From IMG/VR virus record IMGVR_UViG_3300032331_000813, positions 20,466-84,465 of that record: a DNA stretch of 64,000 bases, one strand, 5' to 3'. The stretch is from a virus. The notes beneath the pieces are model-generated. The model did no database searches. It was not told the origin of the DNA and saw only the letters and a program-made list of their open reading frames with translations. The translations under genes and the position numbers were made by a program. Shown piece after piece: positions 6,053 through 61,753 of this stretch; position 1 is the stretch's first letter, and the number at the start of each line of letters is the position of its first letter.

Positions 6053-9000
6053 ATGGCAACAAGAATTAGAACATTAAATTTTCTTCCAGAAATATTTAAA
6101 ACACCAACCAATAATCAATTTTTATCAGCAACATTAGATCAATTAGTTGCTCAACCCAATACGGAAAAGATAGAAGGTTATGTTGGTAGTAAATTTGGAT
6201 ATGGTGTAAATCCAAACGATAATTATGTAACTGAACCAACAAAAATTAGAACAGATTATCAATTAGATCCGGGTGTAGTTTTCTTAAAAGAAAATGATAC
6301 TACTGCAAAAGATTTTATTAGCTATCCGGGCATCATTGATGCATTAAAATTAAAAGGTGGTATAACTGAAGATAACAGTAGACTTTTTAATAATCAATTT
6401 TATTCATGGGATTCTTTTACTGATTTAGATAAAATCATTAACTTTAGTCAGTACTATTGGGTACCTAATGGACCAGAAAGAGTTGTAGTACAATCAAGTG
6501 CAATTTATAGTTCGGTACAGTATAATGTACAATCAGAGACTGCATATTATGTAATTTCATCTAATGAAACTTCACCTGAAATTAATCCGACACTTACACT
6601 GTTAAGGGGCGGTACTTACACATTTAAAGTAAATCAAGATTCTAATTTTTGGATACAAGGCGTTCCTGGATTGACTGGATATAGTCCTGTACAAAGAAAT
6701 TTACAAACACGTAACGTTTATGGTGTTGAGAATAATGGAATAAAAGATGGTACTGTTACCTTTACTGTACCACCCAAAGATGCATTAAGTGAATATTATT
6801 TTGTAAACTCTACTACAGTTGATGTAGTGTCTACTTTACCATTTGCTCAAGTTAATGGTGCAACTGTAGATTCTATTGGTGGTATTGATGGTGTTACTGA
6901 ATTAGACGGATTGACCGTAATGTTCTACAACACTGGAGTAGAAAATGAGATAGCTTATACTAATCAATTTTTTGATCAAACACAGTTTGATGAAGAAGGC
7001 GGTGTACCTTATACTAATTCTTCTCAAAGAATAACAAAAACTATTACTGATAGTAATAGTTTAACCAATGAATTTACTTATATAAACGATACTGGAATTA
7101 GTGACTTTCAAGCGAATGATGCTATAACTTTTGTAGGAACATTAATTGGCGGGGTTGTTAAAAACAAAACATATTATGTAAAAGAAATTACATCTTCAAA
7201 CACGTTTACTATATCATCAACAGTTAATGGAAATGTTGTTGAATTGACAGATGCTACCGGTGGTAGTATGACTGTAAGAATACAAACTAGTTATCCTGGC
7301 ACTGATATTTTTGATAATAACTTTGAAGGTGGATTCTATAATCAAGTAAGTAGAAATTTTTATTCAGTTACGTTATTAGGTGATGTAGATAATCCAGTAA
7401 TTCAATTAACTCGCTTATCTTCTATCCCTGCTAAAACTACTATCACTGCTGAGTTTGGAGCACAATGGGCTTCAATTAATTTCTTTCAAAATTCATTAGG
7501 TGAAATTCAACTTCAACCATATAACAGTGCTATACTAGATACATTGTATTATCAAGATGCGACTACTTTATCTAAGGTAGGTCAACTTAGAATAATTGAC
7601 GATAACTATACTAATTATATTGACGTTGATTTTGATATTTTGGGAAAGAAAAACTATACGGCACCAAATGGTGTAGTATTTACCAATGGATTAAAAATTA
7701 TATTCCAAGGTAATATCTATCCATCTAAGTATGAAAACGTAGAATATTATGTAGAAGGCGTGGGCAGTGCAATTGAATTGATTCCGGTTGCTACTTTAAT
7801 ATCTCCGGGATTGTTTACCTCAGGTGAGTATACTCCTTACGACTCTACCCCTTATGATTTGGGTAACTATGATTCTAATTTATATGTTCCTATCAATCCA
7901 GATTATCTTACTATTGCTAGAAATTCTATCAATAGAAATGCATGGTCAAGAAGTAATCGTTGGTTTCACATTGACGTAATTAATGCAACGGCTGCATATA
8001 ATAACACACCTTCTTTAATAACAGAATACACAAATTTAGAAAATAAAGCAAAACGACCAATTATTGAATTTTATCCTAACATAAAATTATTTGATTCTGG
8101 TGCAGTAGGTAAAGATCCTATAGATTTTATTGATACTAGGACTACAGATGCATTTACATATGTAGCTGGTCAATCCTCATATTTTCCAGATGTTGCCGGT
8201 TATACAGGTTATAATGCTACGATTGCACCAGTTACCTTAGCAGACACCTCAGTGATAGCAACAAACGTATATGGATATACTGATACTATAGCTGTAAGTA
8301 GTGTTACAGGTTTATATGTCAATGACACCATAAGATTCACTGTTCCTATAATTAATGCTGTCTCACTTGTTGTTGGAAAAACATATGTTATAAACACACT
8401 TGGTTCTACTAATTTTACACTAGTTGGAGCATTATCAAATACAGTAGGAACATCTTTTGTTGCTACTGGAGTAGGAACTGGCACCGGTACTGCAACTACG
8501 TTTGGAGGACTTACACCAAACACTACTTACTATATAACTAGTATAGAAACAAATGTTCAAGTAAGTTCTAATGTGTTTAAAGATTTGATTACTGTCTCTT
8601 TAACTAGACAGGGTGTAAATGTAAATCTATCAAACTCAGATACATTGAGTATTGCCACATCAATATATCATTACAGTACTTCTATTACAGTTCCTACTAG
8701 TAGTATATCTGGGCTATTTGAAAAGAATCAATACGTATCAGACTCGACCAATTATCTACCTAGTGTAACATTAATAAGTAATGTAACAACGGTCAATGAT
8801 AACACTATAATAACTGTTACTTGGACAGTTCAAGCAGTTATTCCTGCAACTTCAATTGCTTCAATTGTCTCTGCTGATACTCCATTAGATAATTATGGAT
8901 TATTTGATGGTGCTAGAATTGTGTTTGCAGCAGAGACTACTGATTCAGTTAGGAATAAAATATATATTTCTAGATTTGCTTCAATAACTCCAAATGGAAC

Positions 9001-53483: not shown

Positions 53484-56400
53484 ATGCGAGATGTATTTTA
53501 TTACGGTAATAAACCCAACGTTCACCCAAGAGAAAAATTTGCAACTTCAATAGAAGATGCTAGACAACAATGCACCACTGAACATTTTTGGATAATCAAC
53601 GAATTTTGTGATTATCGAAATTTTGATTGGGAATGGGAATTTGATTTCTTACCTGACCATGAAGTTTGGGCAGAAGAACACAATAATGTATGGCCTAGTG
53701 TTCATCAAAAAGATAGTGGTACATGGTTGTGTCCACAAACAAAAAGTGAAATAATAATATATCGTGCTGATGTTGAACCATTACCTAGAAAAAAAATAAT
53801 TTCTAATGAATGGAAATTTATAGATAAAGTAGATACAACTAAATTTGACTTTAGCTGGCACCCTGACCCTTCATCACCTCCATACGTATATGTATGGGGA
53901 AATAAATGGAATCCAGTAGAATTGCAACCGGCACTAGAGTATCATACTCCTAATGCTACTACTAGAAAATATATAGATCAAGTAGTTGAATTGTTACCTA
54001 ATGAGTATTTTGTAGAAATACAACCAATTGACAAGTCTAAGTTTGACATGACTTGGAGACCCAATCCACTCGATCCTCCCTTCATTTACAAGTGGGGAAA
54101 TAAATTTAATCCAGTTGAAATGGAAACTGCATTAGAATATCATGCGCCCGGCGCAACTGAAGTAAAATACATGAAAACTCCTATTGAGATTATCACGCAA
54201 TGGGACAGTTGGGAAAACGTTGAAAATATAGATAAAGAAAGTTTTGATTGGACATGGAGACCTGACCCAAGAGAACCTCCCTTCATATATCATTTTGGTA
54301 CTCAATGGCAAAAGACAAATGGTCCTAAATACACAGTTAAAGGCGCCACTAAAATTAAGTATATAAGCGAAATAAAAGCTAAAATAATGCCTAATAGAGA
54401 AAATTGGACCGTTCCTGATAATATAGATGTTACTGGATTTGACTTTAGCTGGCATCCCGATGCAACGAGTCCTCCTTACACATATAGATTTCCTACTCAA
54501 TGGGCGATGAGTGGTGGACCTACTTACACAGTACCAGGCGCTACTGAAGTAAAATATGTTGACGTAATAAAAGCAAAAGCATTACCCGATAAAACCAATT
54601 GGGATGTACCATCTTATATTGATAGTGACAGTTTTGACTTTAGCTGGCATCCATATATAGAAGATGAACCATTCATATATCAGTTTGGTACTCAATGGCA
54701 AAAGACAGGTGGTCCTCAGTATGTGCATCCTAACATACCTAGAATGGCATCAGGTAAGCCTATTGGTCAAGTAAAATACATTGATACACGTATTATAAAA
54801 GCAAAACGCTTACCTAGTAAAAAAGGATTCATGCCACCTGAAAACTTTAAAGAAATAGTAGACTTTGATTATTCATGGCACCCAGACGATACAGAACCAC
54901 CATACATATATCATTTTGGTACACAGCATCAAAAGACAGGTGGACCAAGATACTTTGTTGAAGGTGCGACTGAAATAAAATATGTAGATAAACCAAGAGC
55001 CGCAGTTCTTCCAAAAGATAATACTATCAATTGGGAAATACCAAATAACATAGATGTTAGTGAGTTTGATTTTAGTTGGCACCCTGATGAGAGAGATGAA
55101 CCATATATCTATCAATTTGGCACACAACATCAAAAGACAGGTGGACCAAAGTACATTGTCCCTAAAGCTACTGAAATAAAATATGTAGAAAATTCAAAAG
55201 CAAAAAGTTTATCTAATAAAGAAAATTGGGTTATGCCAGATGATTTAGATATTGCAGACTTTGATTTTAGTTGGCACCCTGACGATACAGAAGAACCTTT
55301 CTTGTATCATTTTGGTACACAATGGTCAGAACATGGAGGACCTACGTATGTAAGACCGGGTGCAATTGTCGGTGTAACTGCCACTAAGTATATTAATCCT
55401 AGAGTACTCAAGGCGACTGTAGCGCCTGATAAAAAGTATTGGATAATACCAGATGATATAGACAGCGATAGTTTTGACTTTAGCTGGCATCCTCATCCAA
55501 ATAGTCCACCGTTCATATATCAATTTGGTACACAGTGGCAAAAGACAGGTGGACCTCAGTATATACATCCTGATATAACTAAAACGGCAACAGGAAAACC
55601 CAATGGTCAAATTAGTTATGTTGATACACGAGTTCTCTCATCTACTAAACTGCCATTAAAAACATATTGGGTGATTCCTGATAATATTGATGTTAGTGAA
55701 TTTGATTTTAGTTGGCATCCTGATGACACAAGTCCACCTACTACCTATCAGTTTGGTACATTATTAGATAAAGAAGATGGTCCTAAATATGTTCATCCTA
55801 ACACTATGGATGATGTAGTTGTATATCTAGAAAGAATCGCACCTAAGCAAGTTATAGTAGAGACAGTAGTTCATACTGATTTTCCTAAATATATCGTAAC
55901 TACCACACTTGAAGATTTGATTGAAGAACATTCTAACGAATTGTTTTGGGCATTAAATCCTGATTTAGACTATAGTGAGTTTGATTTTAATTGGAGACCT
56001 AGTATTGAACAGTCGCAATATCTACATGCGTTTGGCTCACCTGAGAATATCAATACTCAAACATACTTTGTTAATGCAGCAGCATGGTTAAAAGGATTTA
56101 AAGATATCAATTATGTTGAAGATAAAACACTCAATGTAAAAGTTAATATTGATATGTTCTTTGTTGACAGAAGCAATAATGAATCACAGTCACGGTTTGA
56201 AAAACTAAAGAATAAATTCCCTAACATACAAAAAACTCGCTACTTAAATAGTTGGGTAGAAACTATCAATCGTTGTATTAATCGTGCTAGTAGTAATTTG
56301 TGTTGGATATTGAATAGTGAGTTAGACTATAGTGATTTTGATTTCAACTATTATCCTAATCCATGGCAGATGAAAATGGTACATGTGTTTGGTACTCAAT

Positions 56401-57857
56401 GGAGTCACTGGGGCACTACCTATATGGTTAACCGAGATACGTTTGCTGATGATACAAAATTCATAAAGATAATTGAACATCTTTCTAATCTTAACTTTGT
56501 TAAGGATAGGAGAGCAAAGGCAACTAATATTCTATATGATACTATCTACATAGACCATGGCAATAAAGATATGTCTAGATTACAAAAAGAAGGAAAATTA
56601 GTAATAAAATATCAGAACAGTTATATCACTACATTCCAAAAGATGTTAGATATGCTACCTATTAAAAAAGAACATTATGTATGGGTAGTTAGTTCTATAT
56701 GTGATTATGCCGAATTTGATTTTACTTATATATGCGATCCTTTTGCAAAAGATCAATTGCATGTTTTCCCTAGTGATAGACAAAAATTTGGTGATACGTT
56801 CTTAGTTGATGTTAACAAATTACGTGAACTAATTGAAGATATGAACTCATTAGAAGATTACGTAAAAATTAACTATAATCAAAATCAACGTGTAACTAGA
56901 CTTACTCCACCTGTTATAGTTACTGAAGGGGATACACATTTATCTAGCATAAACACAGAGTTTAATTTTCCTTATGCAGTATTTGTTACAGAAGATAATA
57001 GAAATATAAATGTAGTTGACAGTGAACCAATGAGTTTATGGAGTCCTGAATCTAAAAACATTCAAGTAACCAGTATAGGTGGAACACGAATTGTGGTACC
57101 CAAAGAAGCTAAAGATTTCATAGAGACACAGTTATATGATTATCCTTACATTAAATCTAATAATAGATTATCGCAATCAATTCCATTGGACATTGTATTC
57201 TTTAGTAACGGTGAAGGTGCAGCAGATAAAAATTATGCACATTTATTAGAGATAACAAAAGGATTACCAAACAGACTAACAAGAGTAGATGGGGTGCAAG
57301 GTAGAGTAAACAGTCAACATGCGGCTGCTAATGCTAGTAAAACATCATGGTACTTCTTAGTTAATGGGAAACTGAAAGTAAGTCAAAAATTTGACTTCAA
57401 TTGGCAACCCGATAGATTACAATTACCTAAGCATTATATATTTCAAGCTACTAATCCAGTCAATGGATTAAAGTATGGACATCAAGCTATTGTTGCTAAT
57501 AACAAACGATTGACTTTAGAAAATTATGGTAGCGGATTAGATTTTACTATGGATAGTGACCATGAGATTGTCAAAATAAACAGTGGTATGGCAATATTCA
57601 ATACTAGTGAATGGGACACATGGCGTACTGCGTTCCGTGAATGCATTAAACTTAAAGCATCGGGCACTGAAGAAAATAAAGAACGATTAGAATTTTGGTT
57701 AACAGTTGCTATGGGTGACTTTGCCCAATATAGTATCGAAGGTGCTCAAGATGCTGTAGAATACTATGAAGAAGTTAATGGTGACTTTAATAAACTAAGA
57801 TTAAGCTATGACTGGGCTTGGTTAAAAACTTACTATGAGACTAAATATACGTTATGA
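53484..57857 (+). CDS. 1457-residue repeat protein with C-terminal GT-like domain
   Basis: Residues about 120-780 hold ten units of roughly 65 residues. Each has an FDFSWHPD core, then PPYIYxFGTQWQKTGGPxY and GATEVKYVD. A degenerate unit lies before them and three more after (FDFNWRP, FDFNYYP, FDFTYIC), together with LNPDLDYSEF-like linkers. Residues about 1230-1430 form a domain homologous to the protein at 35573 (RVDGVQGRVNSQHAAANAS; NPVNGLKYGHQ), but with VNGK where that protein has the acidic DGDN, so catalysis by this copy is doubtful. It may be a scaffold or glycan-binding repeat array. Start ATG at 53484 is 8 nt after the carbamoyltransferase stop. Confidence 0.75.
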   Translation: MRDVFYYGNKPNVHPREKFATSIEDARQQCTTEHFWIINEFCDYRNFDWEWEFDFLPDHEVWAEEHNNVWPSVHQKDSGTWLCPQTKSEIIIYRADVEPLPRKKIISNEWKFIDKVDTTKFDFSWHPDPSSPPYVYVWGNKWNPVELQPALEYHTPNATTRKYIDQVVELLPNEYFVEIQPIDKSKFDMTWRPNPLDPPFIYKWGNKFNPVEMETALEYHAPGATEVKYMKTPIEIITQWDSWENVENIDKESFDWTWRPDPREPPFIYHFGTQWQKTNGPKYTVKGATKIKYISEIKAKIMPNRENWTVPDNIDVTGFDFSWHPDATSPPYTYRFPTQWAMSGGPTYTVPGATEVKYVDVIKAKALPDKTNWDVPSYIDSDSFDFSWHPYIEDEPFIYQFGTQWQKTGGPQYVHPNIPRMASGKPIGQVKYIDTRIIKAKRLPSKKGFMPPENFKEIVDFDYSWHPDDTEPPYIYHFGTQHQKTGGPRYFVEGATEIKYVDKPRAAVLPKDNTINWEIPNNIDVSEFDFSWHPDERDEPYIYQFGTQHQKTGGPKYIVPKATEIKYVENSKAKSLSNKENWVMPDDLDIADFDFSWHPDDTEEPFLYHFGTQWSEHGGPTYVRPGAIVGVTATKYINPRVLKATVAPDKKYWIIPDDIDSDSFDFSWHPHPNSPPFIYQFGTQWQKTGGPQYIHPDITKTATGKPNGQISYVDTRVLSSTKLPLKTYWVIPDNIDVSEFDFSWHPDDTSPPTTYQFGTLLDKEDGPKYVHPNTMDDVVVYLERIAPKQVIVETVVHTDFPKYIVTTTLEDLIEEHSNELFWALNPDLDYSEFDFNWRPSIEQSQYLHAFGSPENINTQTYFVNAAAWLKGFKDINYVEDKTLNVKVNIDMFFVDRSNNESQSRFEKLKNKFPNIQKTRYLNSWVETINRCINRASSNLCWILNSELDYSDFDFNYYPNPWQMKMVHVFGTQWSHWGTTYMVNRDTFADDTKFIKIIEHLSNLNFVKDRRAKATNILYDTIYIDHGNKDMSRLQKEGKLVIKYQNSYITTFQKMLDMLPIKKEHYVWVVSSICDYAEFDFTYICDPFAKDQLHVFPSDRQKFGDTFLVDVNKLRELIEDMNSLEDYVKINYNQNQRVTRLTPPVIVTEGDTHLSSINTEFNFPYAVFVTEDNRNINVVDSEPMSLWSPESKNIQVTSIGGTRIVVPKEAKDFIETQLYDYPYIKSNNRLSQSIPLDIVFFSNGEGAADKNYAHLLEITKGLPNRLTRVDGVQGRVNSQHAAANASKTSWYFLVNGKLKVSQKFDFNWQPDRLQLPKHYIFQATNPVNGLKYGHQAIVANNKRLTLENYGSGLDFTMDSDHEIVKINSGMAIFNTSEWDTWRTAFRECIKLKASGTEENKERLEFWLTVAMGDFAQYSIEGAQDAVEYYEEVNGDFNKLRLSYDWAWLKTYYETKYTL
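53840..55820 (+). repeat. Ten-unit protein repeat with FDFSWHPD core
   Basis: Ten units, each about 190-240 nt, encode the FD(F/W/M/Y)xWxP core with PP(Y/F)xYxFGTQWQKTGGP. Neighbouring units differ by substitutions and by an insertion of a TGKPxGQxxYxDTR segment in two units (near 54750 and 55590), so they arose by unequal duplication and then diverged. Confidence 0.75.
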
Positions 57858-58477: not shown

Positions 58478-58708
58478 ATGAGACAAGTAGTAATAGATGA
58501 ATTAACAGAAAGAATAAAAAACTTTGAAAAAGTGGCAAAACCGCGTGATGTGGGAACCGGTATGACTGGTTCTTTTAACATGTTTAATTATACCATTCAA
58601 AGTGGAACTGCCATGACACAGGAAGAATTTGATTCATGTACATATGACGATTGGTTACGAGAAGAACATATTCGTGTGTATAAAAAAGTCAATAACCTTC
58701 TTGGATGA
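58478..58708 (+). CDS. Conserved phage hypothetical protein
   Basis: A 76-residue protein with a strong GGAGG site 7 nt before its ATG. It starts with a helix (VVIDELTERIKNFEKVA) and ends with EEFDSCTYDDWLREEHIRVYKKVNNLL, giving an all-helical acidic/basic protein. It is the last gene of the long operon and ends about 20 nt before the tmRNA. Function unknown. Confidence 0.65.
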   Translation: MRQVVIDELTERIKNFEKVAKPRDVGTGMTGSFNMFNYTIQSGTAMTQEEFDSCTYDDWLREEHIRVYKKVNNLLG

Positions 58709-58711
58709 TAG

Positions 58712-58719
58712 ACTAAATA
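58712..58719 (+). promoter_or_regulatory. Octamer ACTAAATA just before the permuted tmRNA gene
   Basis: ACTAAATA begins 4 nt after the upstream stop. The acceptor piece begins shortly after, so the octamer could start its transcript. The same octamer precedes the porin and pstS. Confidence 0.35.
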
Positions 58720-58721
58720 TA

Positions 58722-58789
58722 AGTTATTGCTGTATGAAGCAAAGAGAAAAGTGTTCTGGACGCGGGTTCGACTCCCGCCAGGTCCACCA
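58722..58789 (+). ncRNA. ssrA: tmRNA acceptor piece (3' half of ssrA, encoded first)
   Basis: T-arm GCGGG, loop TTCGACT and CCCGC at 58762-58778, then CAGGTCC (58779-58785) and an encoded ACCA end at 58786-58789. CAGGTCC pairs over 7 bp with GGGCCTG at 58886-58892, the start of the coding piece. TGTTCT (58752-58757) pairs with AGAGCA (58906-58911) and TGCTGT (58728-58733) with ACAGCA (58928-58933), two parts of helix P2. The segment GGACGCGGGTTC before the T-loop matches bacterial tmRNA 3' ends. This is the 3' half placed before the 5' half, as in two-piece tmRNA. The exact 5' end is not certain. Confidence 0.85.
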
Positions 58790-58881
58790 TAAAGTATTTT
58801 ATTAGCTCAGTTGTGTAGAGCGTCCGCAGAATTCTAGATAAGCGGTTGGTCGTTGGTTCGAGGCCAACATAGAATACTTTA
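58790..58881 (+). other. tmRNA intervening segment forming one 13-bp-capped tRNA-like fold
   Basis: TAAAGTATTTTAT (58790-58802) pairs with ATAGAATACTTTA (58869-58881) over 13 bp with one U-G pair, enclosing the D arm and T arm of a tRNA. The helix begins at the base right after the tmRNA CCA, and four bases separate its end from the start of the coding piece. In known two-piece tmRNAs this intervening part is removed. Confidence 0.7.
58796..58876 (+). tRNA. tRNA-like gene with enlarged anticodon loop inside the tmRNA intervening segment
   Basis: Acceptor stem ATTTTAT/ATAGAAT (58796-58802 with 58869-58875), D arm GCTC...GAGC (58805-58821), T arm GTTGG, loop TTCGAGG, CCAAC (58852-58868), discriminator A and no encoded CCA. 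The anticodon stem reduces to CCGC/GCGG around a 14-base loop instead of 7, so an anticodon cannot be read safely; GAT (Ile) or TCT (Arg) are possible triplets. It could be a tRNA with an inserted loop, or a tRNA turned into a processing signal. It lies wholly between the two tmRNA pieces. Confidence 0.5.
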
Positions 58882-58885
58882 TAAT

Positions 58886-59048
58886 GGGCCTGCCCTGGTT
58901 TCGACAGAGCAAAGAGTAACAGAGTGGACAGCACGGTAGGCGATGACCGTTAATCAAGCAAATTTCATAACTGCAAACGATGAGTTATATTCTTTAGCCG
59001 CTTGAGGCTAAGGTGCAGTAGGACTTACTGTATAAAAGAAACAACCAG
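58886..59048 (+). ncRNA. ssrA: tmRNA coding piece (5' half of ssrA) with tag ANDELYSLAA
   Basis: It begins GGGCCTG and holds the tmRNA hallmark TGGTTTCGACAG (58896-58907). The tag frame starts at GCA 58973 and ends at TGA 59003-59005, giving ANDELYSLAA, an LAA-type degradation tag. TTAGCC/GGCTAA (58994-58999 with 59006-59011) encloses the stop codon like pseudoknot 2, CAGTA/TACTG (59016-59020 with 59026-59030) is a further hairpin, and CGGT/ACCG (58934-58949) fits pseudoknot 1. The RNA frees stalled ribosomes and tags the nascent protein. The 3' end is estimated at the terminator. Confidence 0.88.
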
Positions 59049-59070
59049 AACCCGCTTCGGCGGGTTTCTT
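59049..59070 (+). terminator. Rho-independent terminator after tmRNA
   Basis: AACCCGC, TTCG loop, GCGGGTT (59049-59066), then TTCTT. It closes the tmRNA transcript. Confidence 0.8.
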
Positions 59071-59177
59071 ATTAGTAGTAACACTAATAAAGATTCATAC
59101 TTTTCACTATGTTATTTAGGTAATGGCAACATATATAAACGATATATACAATGTCAATTTGATATAGGAGAACAATT

Positions 59178-59325: not shown

Positions 59326-59634
59326 ATGAAAAAGTTAATAACATCGGCAATACTAATCATGTCTTTGACTACTGCATATGCAGTTGACCCCAAAGCACTA
59401 GCACAAAGTAAAAGTTGTTTAGCTTGTCACGCAATTGATTCTAAGCTAGTTGGACCAGCATATAAAGATGTTGCTGCAAAATATAAAAACGATCCGCTTG
59501 CTGAAGATAGATTGAGTAAAAAAATTATGTCAGGTGGTGGTGGAGTTTGGGGAACAATGCCCATGCCAGCTAATAGTCAAGTTAATCCAAATGAAGCAAA
59601 AATTCTAGCAAAATGGATTTTAAGCATAAAATAA
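59326..59634 (+). CDS. Periplasmic cytochrome c, c551/c552 type
   Basis: The 102-residue protein has a Sec signal peptide (KKLITSAILIMSLTTAYA, cleaved about residue 19). The haem site is CLACH at residues 31-35, with His35 as proximal ligand and a Met in MPMPAN (Met80 most likely) as distal ligand. Mature length of about 83 fits class I cytochromes of the c551/c552 group, which carry electrons between dehydrogenases and oxidases or peroxidases. AAGGAG precedes the ATG. Beside pqqA, it may accept electrons from PQQ-dependent alcohol oxidation, though not necessarily directly. Haem attachment needs host Ccm machinery. Host origin is likely. Confidence 0.88.
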   Translation: MKKLITSAILIMSLTTAYAVDPKALAQSKSCLACHAIDSKLVGPAYKDVAAKYKNDPLAEDRLSKKIMSGGGGVWGTMPMPANSQVNPNEAKILAKWILSIK

Positions 59635-59642
59635 CTATCAAG

Positions 59643-59675
59643 TAGTATACATTGCGTATATACTAAGTAGTTTTT
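59643..59675 (+). terminator. Weak hairpin terminator after the cytochrome gene
   Basis: TAGTATA/TATACTA (59643-59649 with 59659-59665) with a 9-nt loop, then AGTAG and a T run at 59671-59675. AT-rich and short, so efficiency may be low. Confidence 0.45.
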
Positions 59676-59694
59676 ACTTGAATAGATAATTTAT

Positions 59695-59723
59695 TTGACA
59701 CTATTCAACAGACTAAATATTAA
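59695..59723 (+). promoter_or_regulatory. Sigma-70-type promoter for the porin
   Basis: TTGACA at 59695-59700, 17-nt spacer, TATTAA at 59718-59723. The -35 is a perfect match, the -10 four of six. A late-type octamer ACTAAATA (59712-59719) overlaps the spacer end, so host and phage polymerase forms could both act here. Confidence 0.6.
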
Positions 59724-59726
59724 TCT

Positions 59727-59741
59727 AACCCCAAAAGGGTT
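59727..59741 (+). promoter_or_regulatory. Short 5' UTR hairpin before the porin
   Basis: AACCC, loop CAAAA, GGGTT (59727-59741) sits between promoter and AAGGA site. It may protect the transcript start; no known motif. Confidence 0.35.
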
Positions 59742-59762
59742 TATAACTAAAGGAAATATAAT

Positions 59763-60650
59763 ATGAAGAAAATTGCAATATCTGCATTACTAGTTGGTCT
59801 TATGGGAATGGCTCAGGCTGACGTTAGTATTTACGGAAAAGTCCGTGAATATCAAGAATCTTACACGCTTGGAACTGCATCTGCATTAACTCGCCTGACT
59901 AATGATTCAAGTCGGTTTGGTATCAAGGCTAACCAAGATGTTGGTAGCGGCATGACTGTTAGTGGTGTTATTGAAACTGGCGTAGCAATGGATGCTCCTA
60001 GTGCTACTACATTAGGTGACCGTACTGCTATCGTTAGTTTAAGCAATAGCTTTGGTACATTAAGTGCTGGTCGTGATAAACACGCAGTTACAAAAGCATT
60101 GGATAACTTTGATGTACTAGAAAATACATACGGTACAATCGTAGGTTCTATCCACTCTGCACAAGGTTCTCGTGTACAGAACGCAGTATTTTTAACTACT
60201 GCACCAATGGCAGGATTTACTGGTACTTATCACATGGCTAACAGTGAAACAGCAGGTACTACTAATGTACAAGCCGGTAGTATTAACTATTCGCTTGGTG
60301 CATTAAGTGCTACTGTAGCAAAGTATGATGACAGCGTTTCTAGTACAAGTACTACTGCTGGTGTTAAGTACACTATAGCAAGCACAGGCACAACATTGTT
60401 TGGTTTGTACTCTGATGACAAAGTTTCAAATGTAAGCACGACAGGCAAGAGCATTGGTGTTCGTCAAGCTGTTTCTCCTCAATTAGCACTATTAGCTAAC
60501 TATGGTGAAAACAGCAACGGCACTACTGGTAAAGCAGTTGGGGTAGCATATGCTATGAATAAGGCTTTGACATTCCATGCACGTTATAGCTACATTGATA
60601 CAACAACCGATGTTACTCAATATGGCGTTGGTGTAGAATTCAATTTCTAA
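59763..60650 (+). CDS. Outer membrane porin, beta-proteobacterial type
   Basis: The 295-residue protein starts with a Sec signal (MKKIAISALLVGLMGMAQA), then VSIYGKV, the usual first strand of Gram-negative porin_4 proteins. It continues with SSRFGIKANQDVG, SLSNSFGTLSAGRDKHA in loop 3 position, and ends VGVEFNF with the terminal Phe needed for Bam recognition. It is shorter than typical host porins (340-380), so some loops are trimmed. A phage-coded porin could boost uptake of small solutes or swap the cell's receptor surface. It has its own sigma-70-type promoter and terminator. Confidence 0.85.
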   Translation: MKKIAISALLVGLMGMAQADVSIYGKVREYQESYTLGTASALTRLTNDSSRFGIKANQDVGSGMTVSGVIETGVAMDAPSATTLGDRTAIVSLSNSFGTLSAGRDKHAVTKALDNFDVLENTYGTIVGSIHSAQGSRVQNAVFLTTAPMAGFTGTYHMANSETAGTTNVQAGSINYSLGALSATVAKYDDSVSSTSTTAGVKYTIASTGTTLFGLYSDDKVSNVSTTGKSIGVRQAVSPQLALLANYGENSNGTTGKAVGVAYAMNKALTFHARYSYIDTTTDVTQYGVGVEFNF

Positions 60651-60665
60651 TCTAATATTAGATTA
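60648..60665 (+). repeat. 18-bp perfect palindrome at the porin stop codon
   Basis: TAATCTAATATTAGATTA reads the same on both strands; its first three bases are the porin stop. It may be a protein binding site or a weak hairpin. It precedes the terminator at 60668. Confidence 0.55.
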
Positions 60666-60667
60666 AC

Positions 60668-60692
60668 AAAAGGGCACTAGTTGCCCTTTTCT
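60668..60692 (+). terminator. Rho-independent terminator after porin
   Basis: AAAAGGGCA/TGCCCTTTT with a CTAGT loop (60668-60690), then CTTA. Nine-bp stem with T run. Confidence 0.82.
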
Positions 60693-60708
60693 TATGGATG
60701 TAATATTT

Positions 60709-60726
60709 CTGTCATAATAATGTCAC
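60709..60726 (+). promoter_or_regulatory. Pho box before pstS
   Basis: CTGTCAT (60709-60715), four-base AATA, ATGTCAC (60720-60726): two direct heptamers 11 bp apart as in the PhoB consensus (CTGTCAT, 4 bp, CTGTCAT), with one mismatch in the first base of the second heptamer and a C at its end. It lies 31 nt before the pstS ATG. A -10 is not clear: TAAATA at 60727 directly follows, or TGTAAC at 60737. Host PhoB could thus activate the phage pstS. Confidence 0.72.
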
Positions 60727-60757
60727 TAAATATTTGTGTAACACACAAGGAGATTAC

Positions 60758-61753
60758 ATGAAAAAACTGTTTACAACATTATTGGCAGTGATAGCATTCG
60801 CTGCATCAGCACAAGAAATTACGGGAGCCGGAGCAACATTTCCGGCTCCGTTGTATGCAAAGTGGGCAAGTGAATATAACAAGGCCACTAACATCAAGGT
60901 CAACTATCAATCAGTTGGTTCCGGCGCAGGTATCAAGCAAATTGAAGCAAAGACTGTAACATTTGGTGCAAGTGATATGCCACTTACAGATGATAAATTA
61001 AAAGAAATTGGACTATTTCAGTTCCCTACAGCAATCGGTGGAGTTGTTCCGGTGATCAATGTCAAAGGTATTGAGCCAGGTCAACTACGTTTGACTGGTG
61101 CAGTCATAGCTGAAATCTTTTTAGGCAAGATTGTTCGTTGGGATGATGCTGCTATCAAAGCATTAAACCCGTCACTAGCTTTACCTGATCAAGCCATCAC
61201 AGTGGTTCGCCGTGCAGATGGAAGTGGTACAACATTCATCTGGACCAACTACTTGAGCAAAGTAAGCAAAGAGTTCAAAGACACCATTGGTGAAGGTACT
61301 GCGGTCAGTTGGAAAGTAGGCGCAGGCGGCAAAGGTAATGAAGGCGTTTCTGCTATGGTAAGACAACTTCCAGGAGCATTGGGCTATGTTGAATATGCTT
61401 ATGTAAAACAAGCCAAGATGAACTGGGTCAATGTGCAAAACAGTGCAGGTAATTGGGTAGCACCTACAGAAGATGCATTCAAAGCAGCCGCTGCTAATGC
61501 TGATTGGAACAAGAGTTACTATCAGATATTGACTAATCAAGCAGGCAAAGAAGCATGGCCAATATCAGGTGCTACATTCATTCTTGTTTATATCAAACCA
61601 GGTGATGTAGTTGCATCTAAAACTGCTATGACATTCTTTGATTGGGCATTTAGCAATGGTGACAAATCAGCAGATGATTTAGACTATGTGGCACTTCCGC
61701 CAGCAGTCAAAGCTAAGATTCGTGCAGATTGGAAACAATTAGGCTTGTTTTAA
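60758..61753 (+). CDS. pstS: Phosphate-binding periplasmic protein PstS
   Basis: Start ATG at 60758 behind AAGGAG; an upstream in-frame TTG at 60734 is rejected because the signal peptide begins at MKKLFTTLLAVIAFAASAQ. The 331-residue protein has GAGATFPAPLY near residue 23, GSGAGIKQI, GASDMPL near 70, RADGSGTTFIWTNYL near 150, and GGKGNEGVS near 195. These are the phosphate-contact loops of PstS. Residues align over the whole family length. It binds inorganic phosphate for the host PstCAB transporter. Phage pstS is known from cyanophages; a Pho box lies directly upstream. Confidence 0.93.
   Translation: MKKLFTTLLAVIAFAASAQEITGAGATFPAPLYAKWASEYNKATNIKVNYQSVGSGAGIKQIEAKTVTFGASDMPLTDDKLKEIGLFQFPTAIGGVVPVINVKGIEPGQLRLTGAVIAEIFLGKIVRWDDAAIKALNPSLALPDQAITVVRRADGSGTTFIWTNYLSKVSKEFKDTIGEGTAVSWKVGAGGKGNEGVSAMVRQLPGALGYVEYAYVKQAKMNWVNVQNSAGNWVAPTEDAFKAAAANADWNKSYYQILTNQAGKEAWPISGATFILVYIKPGDVVASKTAMTFFDWAFSNGDKSADDLDYVALPPAVKAKIRADWKQLGLF

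Follow-up and report, generated by a model that had tools for sequence, protein, structure and literature searches.

A tRNA-derived, probably non-decoding insert behind a clamp helix in the spacer of a permuted tmRNA gene from a phage

The window, by which we mean the whole 64,000-nucleotide stretch of DNA that was analyzed, belongs to an IMG/VR virus record of 84,465 bases. ARAGORN called a permuted tmRNA gene (tmRNA*) at window positions 58697-59096, with a tag frame that ends in a stop (ANDELYSLAA*), and two Rfam models matched above their gathering scores: RF04321 (tmRNA_permuted) with 138.4 bits against 47, over 58728-59005, and the beta_tmRNA clade model with 128.2 bits against 84. The gene being permuted, its acceptor piece is encoded first (58728..58789; RF04321, beta_tmRNA and ARAGORN), with CCA at its end, and the start of the mRNA-like piece follows (58886..59005; ARAGORN and Rfam), carrying the tag ANDELYSLAA at 58973-59005. 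A hairpin resembling an intrinsic terminator, recognized by a consensus match only, lies at the end of the gene (59048..59067). These features and the spacer elements described below are on the + strand. A spacer of 96 bases (58790-58885) separates the two pieces, of which the first ends, with its CCA, at 58789 and the second begins, with GGG, at 58886. Elsewhere in this phage record, genes of bacterial type lie 3' of the tmRNA (59326-61753); their products are a c-type cytochrome, a porin of the Gram-negative kind and a protein resembling phosphate-binding proteins. A 1457-aa protein (53484-57857) is rich in repeats of the form FDFSWHPD..PPYIYxFGTQ; it matched no Pfam family and has 73 relatives in viral contigs. 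One open reading frame of 7756 aa occupies 6053-29323.

The gene shares with the known permuted two-piece tmRNAs (RF04321, RF01850), ribosome-rescue RNAs that start as a single transcript and are later cleaved into two pieces, the order of acceptor piece, spacer and mRNA piece, the pairing of the acceptor stem across the spacer, the tag and the encoded CCA. However, the spacer of the Rfam consensus is short and AU-rich, whereas that of the window is a 96-nt tRNA-derived fold. Two-piece tmRNAs are described in the accessible text of PMC9004378 as commoner in marine and aquatic phages, with 53 of 133 unique phage tmRNA structures being two-piece by ARAGORN. The same text places permuted ssrA genes in marine myophages such as Melnitz, which share with the present case a permuted ssrA in phages of small aquatic bacteria, but for such Melnitz-type tmRNAs it describes no tRNA-like spacer.

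An earlier note, made from the sequence of the window, had read the spacer as a full tRNA cloverleaf with D arm and T arm, closed by a 13-bp helix starting right after the tmRNA CCA and bearing a 14-base anticodon loop, and we confirmed each of these elements, with their coordinates, on the sequence. The closing helix, or clamp, is formed by UAAAGUAUUUUAU (58790-58802) and AUAGAAUACUUUA (58869-58881) and occupies the acceptor-stem position of the tRNA-like fold; it begins on the base right after the CCA, and all 13 pairs are standard, one of them being G-U. The sequence and its alignment to the Rfam tRNA model RF00005 then place a UA linker at tRNA positions 8-9 (58803..58804), and the same model supports a D arm (58805..58821) with stem GCUC / GAGC and loop AGUUGUGUA, which lacks the GG doublet, and an anticodon arm (58823..58846), UCCGC...GCGGU, with four base pairs and a U.U mismatch. 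The 14-nt anticodon loop, AGAAUUCUAGAUAA (58828-58841), retains the UUCUA of a tRNA-Arg(UCU) loop, as judged by comparison with the tRNA-Arg(TCT) of phage S-PM2. The T arm, GUUGG-UUCGAGG-CCAAC (58852..58868), directly abuts the clamp helix with 0 nt between them, as in a tRNA, and UAAU (58882..58885) precedes the tmRNA 5' end and supplies the A(-2)U(-1) leader end that RNase P favors.

RF00005 matched the spacer at 58796-58876 with 40.9 bits (E 5.4e-8; gathering score 29), as a cloverleaf. The fold had a z-score of -3.1, and one of 200 shuffled sequences was equally stable. In the lowest-energy fold of the window sequence the T-arm strand lies in another register (-25.5 vs -23.4 kcal/mol for the cloverleaf); in L091, a homologous spacer described below, the T-arm register is the preferred one. 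ARAGORN found no tRNA in the spacer. The absence of a tRNA match from the whole-window Rfam scan arose because a tmRNA model of the same clan covers the spacer, and a genome-level RF00005 search lost both spacers, that of the window and that of L091, in its first-look stage and so cannot serve as a negative. The ARAGORN blank and the genome-level miss together mean that ordinary annotation would not show the tRNA fold. Inserts of this kind escape ordinary tRNA calling, being covered by the tmRNA call. At a low threshold ARAGORN reported 'Pyl(cta)'; we rejected this amber-suppressor reading as an artefact of forcing a 7-nt loop on UUCUAGA. No Rfam ribozyme family was found in the window spacer, where tRNA was the sole match, or at gathering level in 20 further loci, and a search of those 20 loci for known small RNAs and ribozymes returned no family other than tmRNA and tRNA. 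The earlier note had named a blank tRNA scan and unrelated spacers in relatives as signs of a chance fold, and both were seen, most relatives' spacers being unrelated, but the Rfam match and the pairing-preserving changes in L091 point the other way. On these grounds we regard the spacer as a tRNA-derived cloverleaf and its fold as not due to chance.

Several features of a decoding tRNA are altered or absent. The spacer lacks a CCA, has GUG in place of the D-loop GG, and carries G at T-loop position 60. In place of a 7-bp acceptor stem with single-stranded ends there is a continuous 13-bp helix, and no CCA or discriminator ends a 7-bp stem, as the stem runs on. The anticodon loop, which in a decoding tRNA would be 7 nt with U33 and a readable anticodon, is 14 nt in the window and 16 nt in L091, and the spacer is not a high-scoring intact tRNA between the tmRNA pieces. 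Because of the 13-bp stem, the enlarged loop and the missing CCA, the insert probably no longer decodes, as the earlier note had suggested.

Viral contigs were scanned with degenerate D-arm, loop and T-arm patterns, and L091 (10758-10853) was the only full match and the only clear homologous spacer in those scans. Its contig is from an otherwise unrelated phage, sharing only the tmRNA with the window contig, and its spacer scored 44.8 bits against RF00005. The D stem (with the whole D arm) and the T stem are identical in the two spacers, whereas all five positions of the anticodon stem have changed on both strands, from UCCGC/GCGGU in the window to GUUCG/CGAAC in L091, so that four standard pairs are replaced by four others and the U.U mismatch by G-C, giving five of five pairs in L091. 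Two clamp pairs also differ on both sides (G-C to A-U and U-A to C-G), and both spacers retain the loop core (AAUUCUAGAUA; AATTCTAGATA). A further spacer, L096, has a near-identical acceptor piece and carries ATTCTAGATAA but has no D arm; 11 of 1000 interior shuffles aligned as well as its spacer did, and it is no more than a possible relative.

As to the source of the insert, the best single match by bit score in a phage collection was the tRNA-Arg(TCT) of Synechococcus phage S-PM2 (E 1e-4), which has CCGC...TTCTA...GCGGT and GGTCGTTGGTTCGAG.CCAAC in common with the spacer. Aligned, S-PM2 reads CCGC-CTTCTAA-GCGGTCGGTCGTTGGTTCGAGTCCAAC where the window reads CCGC-AGAATTCTAGATAA-GCGGTTGGTCGTTGGTTCGAGGCCAAC, with the UUCUA of the anticodon loop surviving within its enlarged version. 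The two are nearly identical in anticodon stem, anticodon bases and T arm, but the S-PM2 tRNA is a stand-alone gene with a 7-bp acceptor stem and a 7-nt loop. This similarity makes it likely that the window insert was derived from a tRNA-Arg(UCU). However, the anticodon stem of L091 resembles that of a phage tRNA-Gly, which leaves a tRNA-Arg origin uncertain for both spacers.

In order to place the spacer among others, we assembled a census of at least 136 distinct phage permuted-tmRNA spacers, falling into at least 84 clusters at 70% identity; it is a sample, and its later scans selected for T arms, D arms or the loop motif, for which reason the enrichment of T arms is quoted on the content-blind set. 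The closing helix had a median of 11 uninterrupted base pairs in the 84 listed clusters, and was at least 8 bp long in 86% of them, compared with 0.7% of shuffles. It was present whatever the spacer contained, and most listed spacers are not tRNA-like. Among cultured phages, Alcaligenes phage vB_Af_QDWS595 and Stenotrophomonas phage Yut2 also carry permuted tmRNAs, with spacers that include a clamp but do not resemble a tRNA. This result gives no support to the idea that the extended helix is a special adaptation of the spacer tRNA; the 13-bp 'acceptor' of the window is a generic clamp fused to a tRNA, in which it replaces the 7-bp acceptor stem. The spacer end before GGG was TGAT or TAAT in 78 of the 84 listed clusters, and nearly all had A(-2)U(-1), which RNase P prefers at the end of a leader; pairing of the leader with RCCA hinders the enzyme (both from PMC9433436). 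Since the RNase P-type AU end occurs in nearly all spacers, the spacer tRNA would not be needed for the 5' cut of the mRNA piece, and since the clamp works in spacers without any tRNA, the tRNA part would not be required for processing in general.

T arms occurred in 6 of 75 listed content-blind clusters, compared with 0.49 in shuffles and a maximum of 3 in any of 300. A T arm lying 0 nt from the closing helix, as in a tRNA, was seen in six clusters of the full listed set, including the window and L121. The L121 locus (6867-7099) has an intact tRNA-Asn(GTT), at 6920-6992 and 68.7 bits, between the two tmRNA pieces, and is thus a case of an intact tRNA in an intervening sequence. This tRNA begins 2 bases after the tmRNA CCA and has its own 7-bp acceptor stem as the closing helix; it directly follows genes for tRNA-Asp, Tyr and Thr in an array, and the tmRNA is of cyanobacterial type. 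A degenerate tRNA (25.7 bits) fills the spacer of L124, and that of L152 retains a T arm only. Small reading frames are the filling in about a quarter of the listed clusters. Nearly identical mature pieces can flank unrelated spacers, for example those of L090 (small ORF) and L124 (T arm); the closest to the window in the mature pieces, L201-L203 (0.92 over aligned positions, counted over aligned columns with gaps ignored), nevertheless have a different 72-nt spacer. Phage relatives found through the neighboring 1457-aa protein had ORF or other spacers, at variable distances from that gene. It is the filling that gets exchanged, and the clamp persists. Scans of genome contigs for a tRNA in the spacer, and for permuted tmRNA with a 90-120 nt gap, each returned 0; they had no positive control and are not read as absence in bacteria.

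We therefore considered a model, which we hold at about even confidence, in which the window spacer is a swappable cassette held between the tmRNA ends by the clamp, and its filling a tRNA, probably tRNA-Arg(UCU), converted to a non-decoding structural insert. The insert would fold by itself during transcription and close the clamp, which would keep the CCA strand of the tmRNA acceptor stem beside its GGG strand and thereby allow formation of the tRNA-like domain. A cut by RNase P at AU|GGG would generate the 5' end of the mRNA piece, leaving on the acceptor piece a 3' trailer in the form of a stable tRNA-like hairpin that 3' exonucleases should find hard to pass. An endonuclease might then open this trailer in the enlarged, AU-rich anticodon loop, with trimming to the CCA to follow. 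Our guess is that RNase E would most likely do so, because GA|AUU in the loop fits its in vivo motif RN|WUU, recognized in single strands (PMC5222698), and the normal CUUCUAA loop lacks such a site; sites of this type are GAAUU in the window, AAAUU in L091 and AGAUU in L096, RNWUU being a loose motif that is common in AU-rich loops. At the normal tRNA cut positions, the 13-bp paired stem would presumably be a poor substrate for RNase P and RNase Z. The proposal of the earlier note that one tRNA-processing substrate could free both tmRNA ends finds only partial support in the window and fits L121 better, with its intact tRNA-Asn beginning 2 bases beyond the tmRNA CCA.

The insert might instead be decaying cargo, an intact phage tRNA that once occupied the slot and is now a pseudogene, with selection acting on the clamp and not on the tRNA part. 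We think this rather unlikely, although it has a plausible starting state in the intact tRNA-Asn of L121 and later-looking stages in L124 and L152, and in the window itself the CCA, the GG of the D loop and the 7-nt anticodon loop are gone. Simple decay does not readily account for the anticodon-stem pairing changed on both sides in L091 alongside perfect D and T stems, for the same enlarged loop core in both spacers, or for the T arms kept right at the junction with the clamp in six listed clusters. Maintenance is preferred mainly because both strands of the stem changed around a loop that stayed, a pattern that a single recombination event would hardly produce, and, in an argument that rests on the two sequences of the window and L091, we conclude that the window insert is probably not plain decay. 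The exact tRNA spacing between T arm and clamp in those six clusters, together with the complementary stems that have been kept, likewise argues against a recombination scar or attachment-site remnant, in which tRNA sequence entered through T-loop recombination or integration and had no later role. Such an origin would agree with the frequent use of tRNA and tmRNA genes as sites of integration (PMC4383910) and with the T-loop heptamer GGTTCGA being the most enriched in spacers (8 of 58 listed clusters vs 0.25 expected, a count partly chosen by the T-arm scans), but we judge it improbable.

If the phage spacer is a general clamp-bounded cargo slot, the tRNA-like form of the window might be released from it as a stable non-decoding mimic, acting in trans through its exposed loop UUCUAGAUA as a decoy or regulator during infection, for example as bait for a tRNA-cutting defense nuclease or as an antisense or protein-binding site, a reading that we also regard as quite unlikely. 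In its favor, the loop is conserved between the window and L091 while the stem beneath it changes, and TTCTAGATA occurs in three listed spacer clusters compared with 0.015 expected in shuffles, of which two are unbiased, as L122 was found by scanning for the motif. However, the copy in L096 may reflect common descent, and in L122 the motif is not a hairpin loop in the lowest-energy fold. Two other motifs were discarded: UCUAGA was found in 6 listed clusters vs 1.2 expected, but in up to 7 in shuffles and thus not significantly, and CTAG in 17 vs 15 expected. That the spacer releases a working tRNA still used in decoding is very hard to credit, given a stem of 13 bp and not 7, a 14-nt anticodon loop, the missing CCA, the lost D-loop GG and a loop enlargement common to L091, even though the cloverleaf score exceeds the Rfam gathering cut-off and intact spacer tRNAs exist elsewhere (L121; PMC11915505).

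One close precedent for the arrangement is published: a single permuted tmRNA, that of GCA-2688965 sp002688965.2, has an intact tRNA-Ala within its intervening sequence, which was termed a unique feature (PMC11915505, 2025). The two cases are alike in having tRNA sequence inside the tmRNA intervening sequence, but that of the window appears to be a converted tRNA with a clamp stem and an enlarged loop, is in a phage and has a homologue. Our literature search, mostly of open-access papers, found no report of a converted tRNA, or of reading frames, in a tmRNA spacer. Circularly permuted tRNA genes (PMC3978253) differ in that their halves are ligated via a circular intermediate, and their listed spacers are 1-74 bp long. 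The spacer of a two-piece tmRNA is usually treated as waste, whereas here it is a structured insert that derives from a tRNA. At the same position, related phages have small protein genes that show a synonymous-substitution signature, fragments of a tRNA or an intact one, and in nearly every case the same clamp encloses the filling. The discarded spacer thus has the look of a cargo slot that can be used again, and not of filler. If so, the permuted tmRNA gene would be a ready-made expression cassette in which the release of the two tmRNA ends could be studied directly, and the insert would show how a tRNA can turn into a non-decoding scaffold.

Other fillings were observed in the census. Long, apparently structured spacers without a reading frame occur in L136/L137 (142 nt), L143/L150/L172/L197 (115-129 nt), L154, L160 and L164; those of L137, L150, L160, L164 and L172 had no Rfam match besides the tmRNA models, and such spacers are possibly undescribed RNA elements. 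Unrelated small frames fill the spacers of L004, L019, L135, L138, L140, L146, L153, L161, L163, L234 (68 aa) and L243, with only weak PHROG matches where these were tested. Spacer cluster 0 (L005, L016, L058, L060, L193 and others; 13 distinct sequences) encodes a peptide of 22-24 aa resembling a single membrane helix, with a strong ribosome-binding site and a TGA stop one base before the tmRNA GGG. Codons differing by a single change were synonymous in 68% of cases, compared with 27% expected, and the frame therefore looks selected at the protein level. In cluster 4 (L001, L008, L012 and L013) the frame MKYTALCPSCF...HKCFSD encodes a mini zinc-finger-like peptide, has no stop within the spacer and continues into the tmRNA; if the precursor is cut at GGG, this message becomes non-stop, and the passenger might be tagged or controlled by the very tmRNA that carries it.
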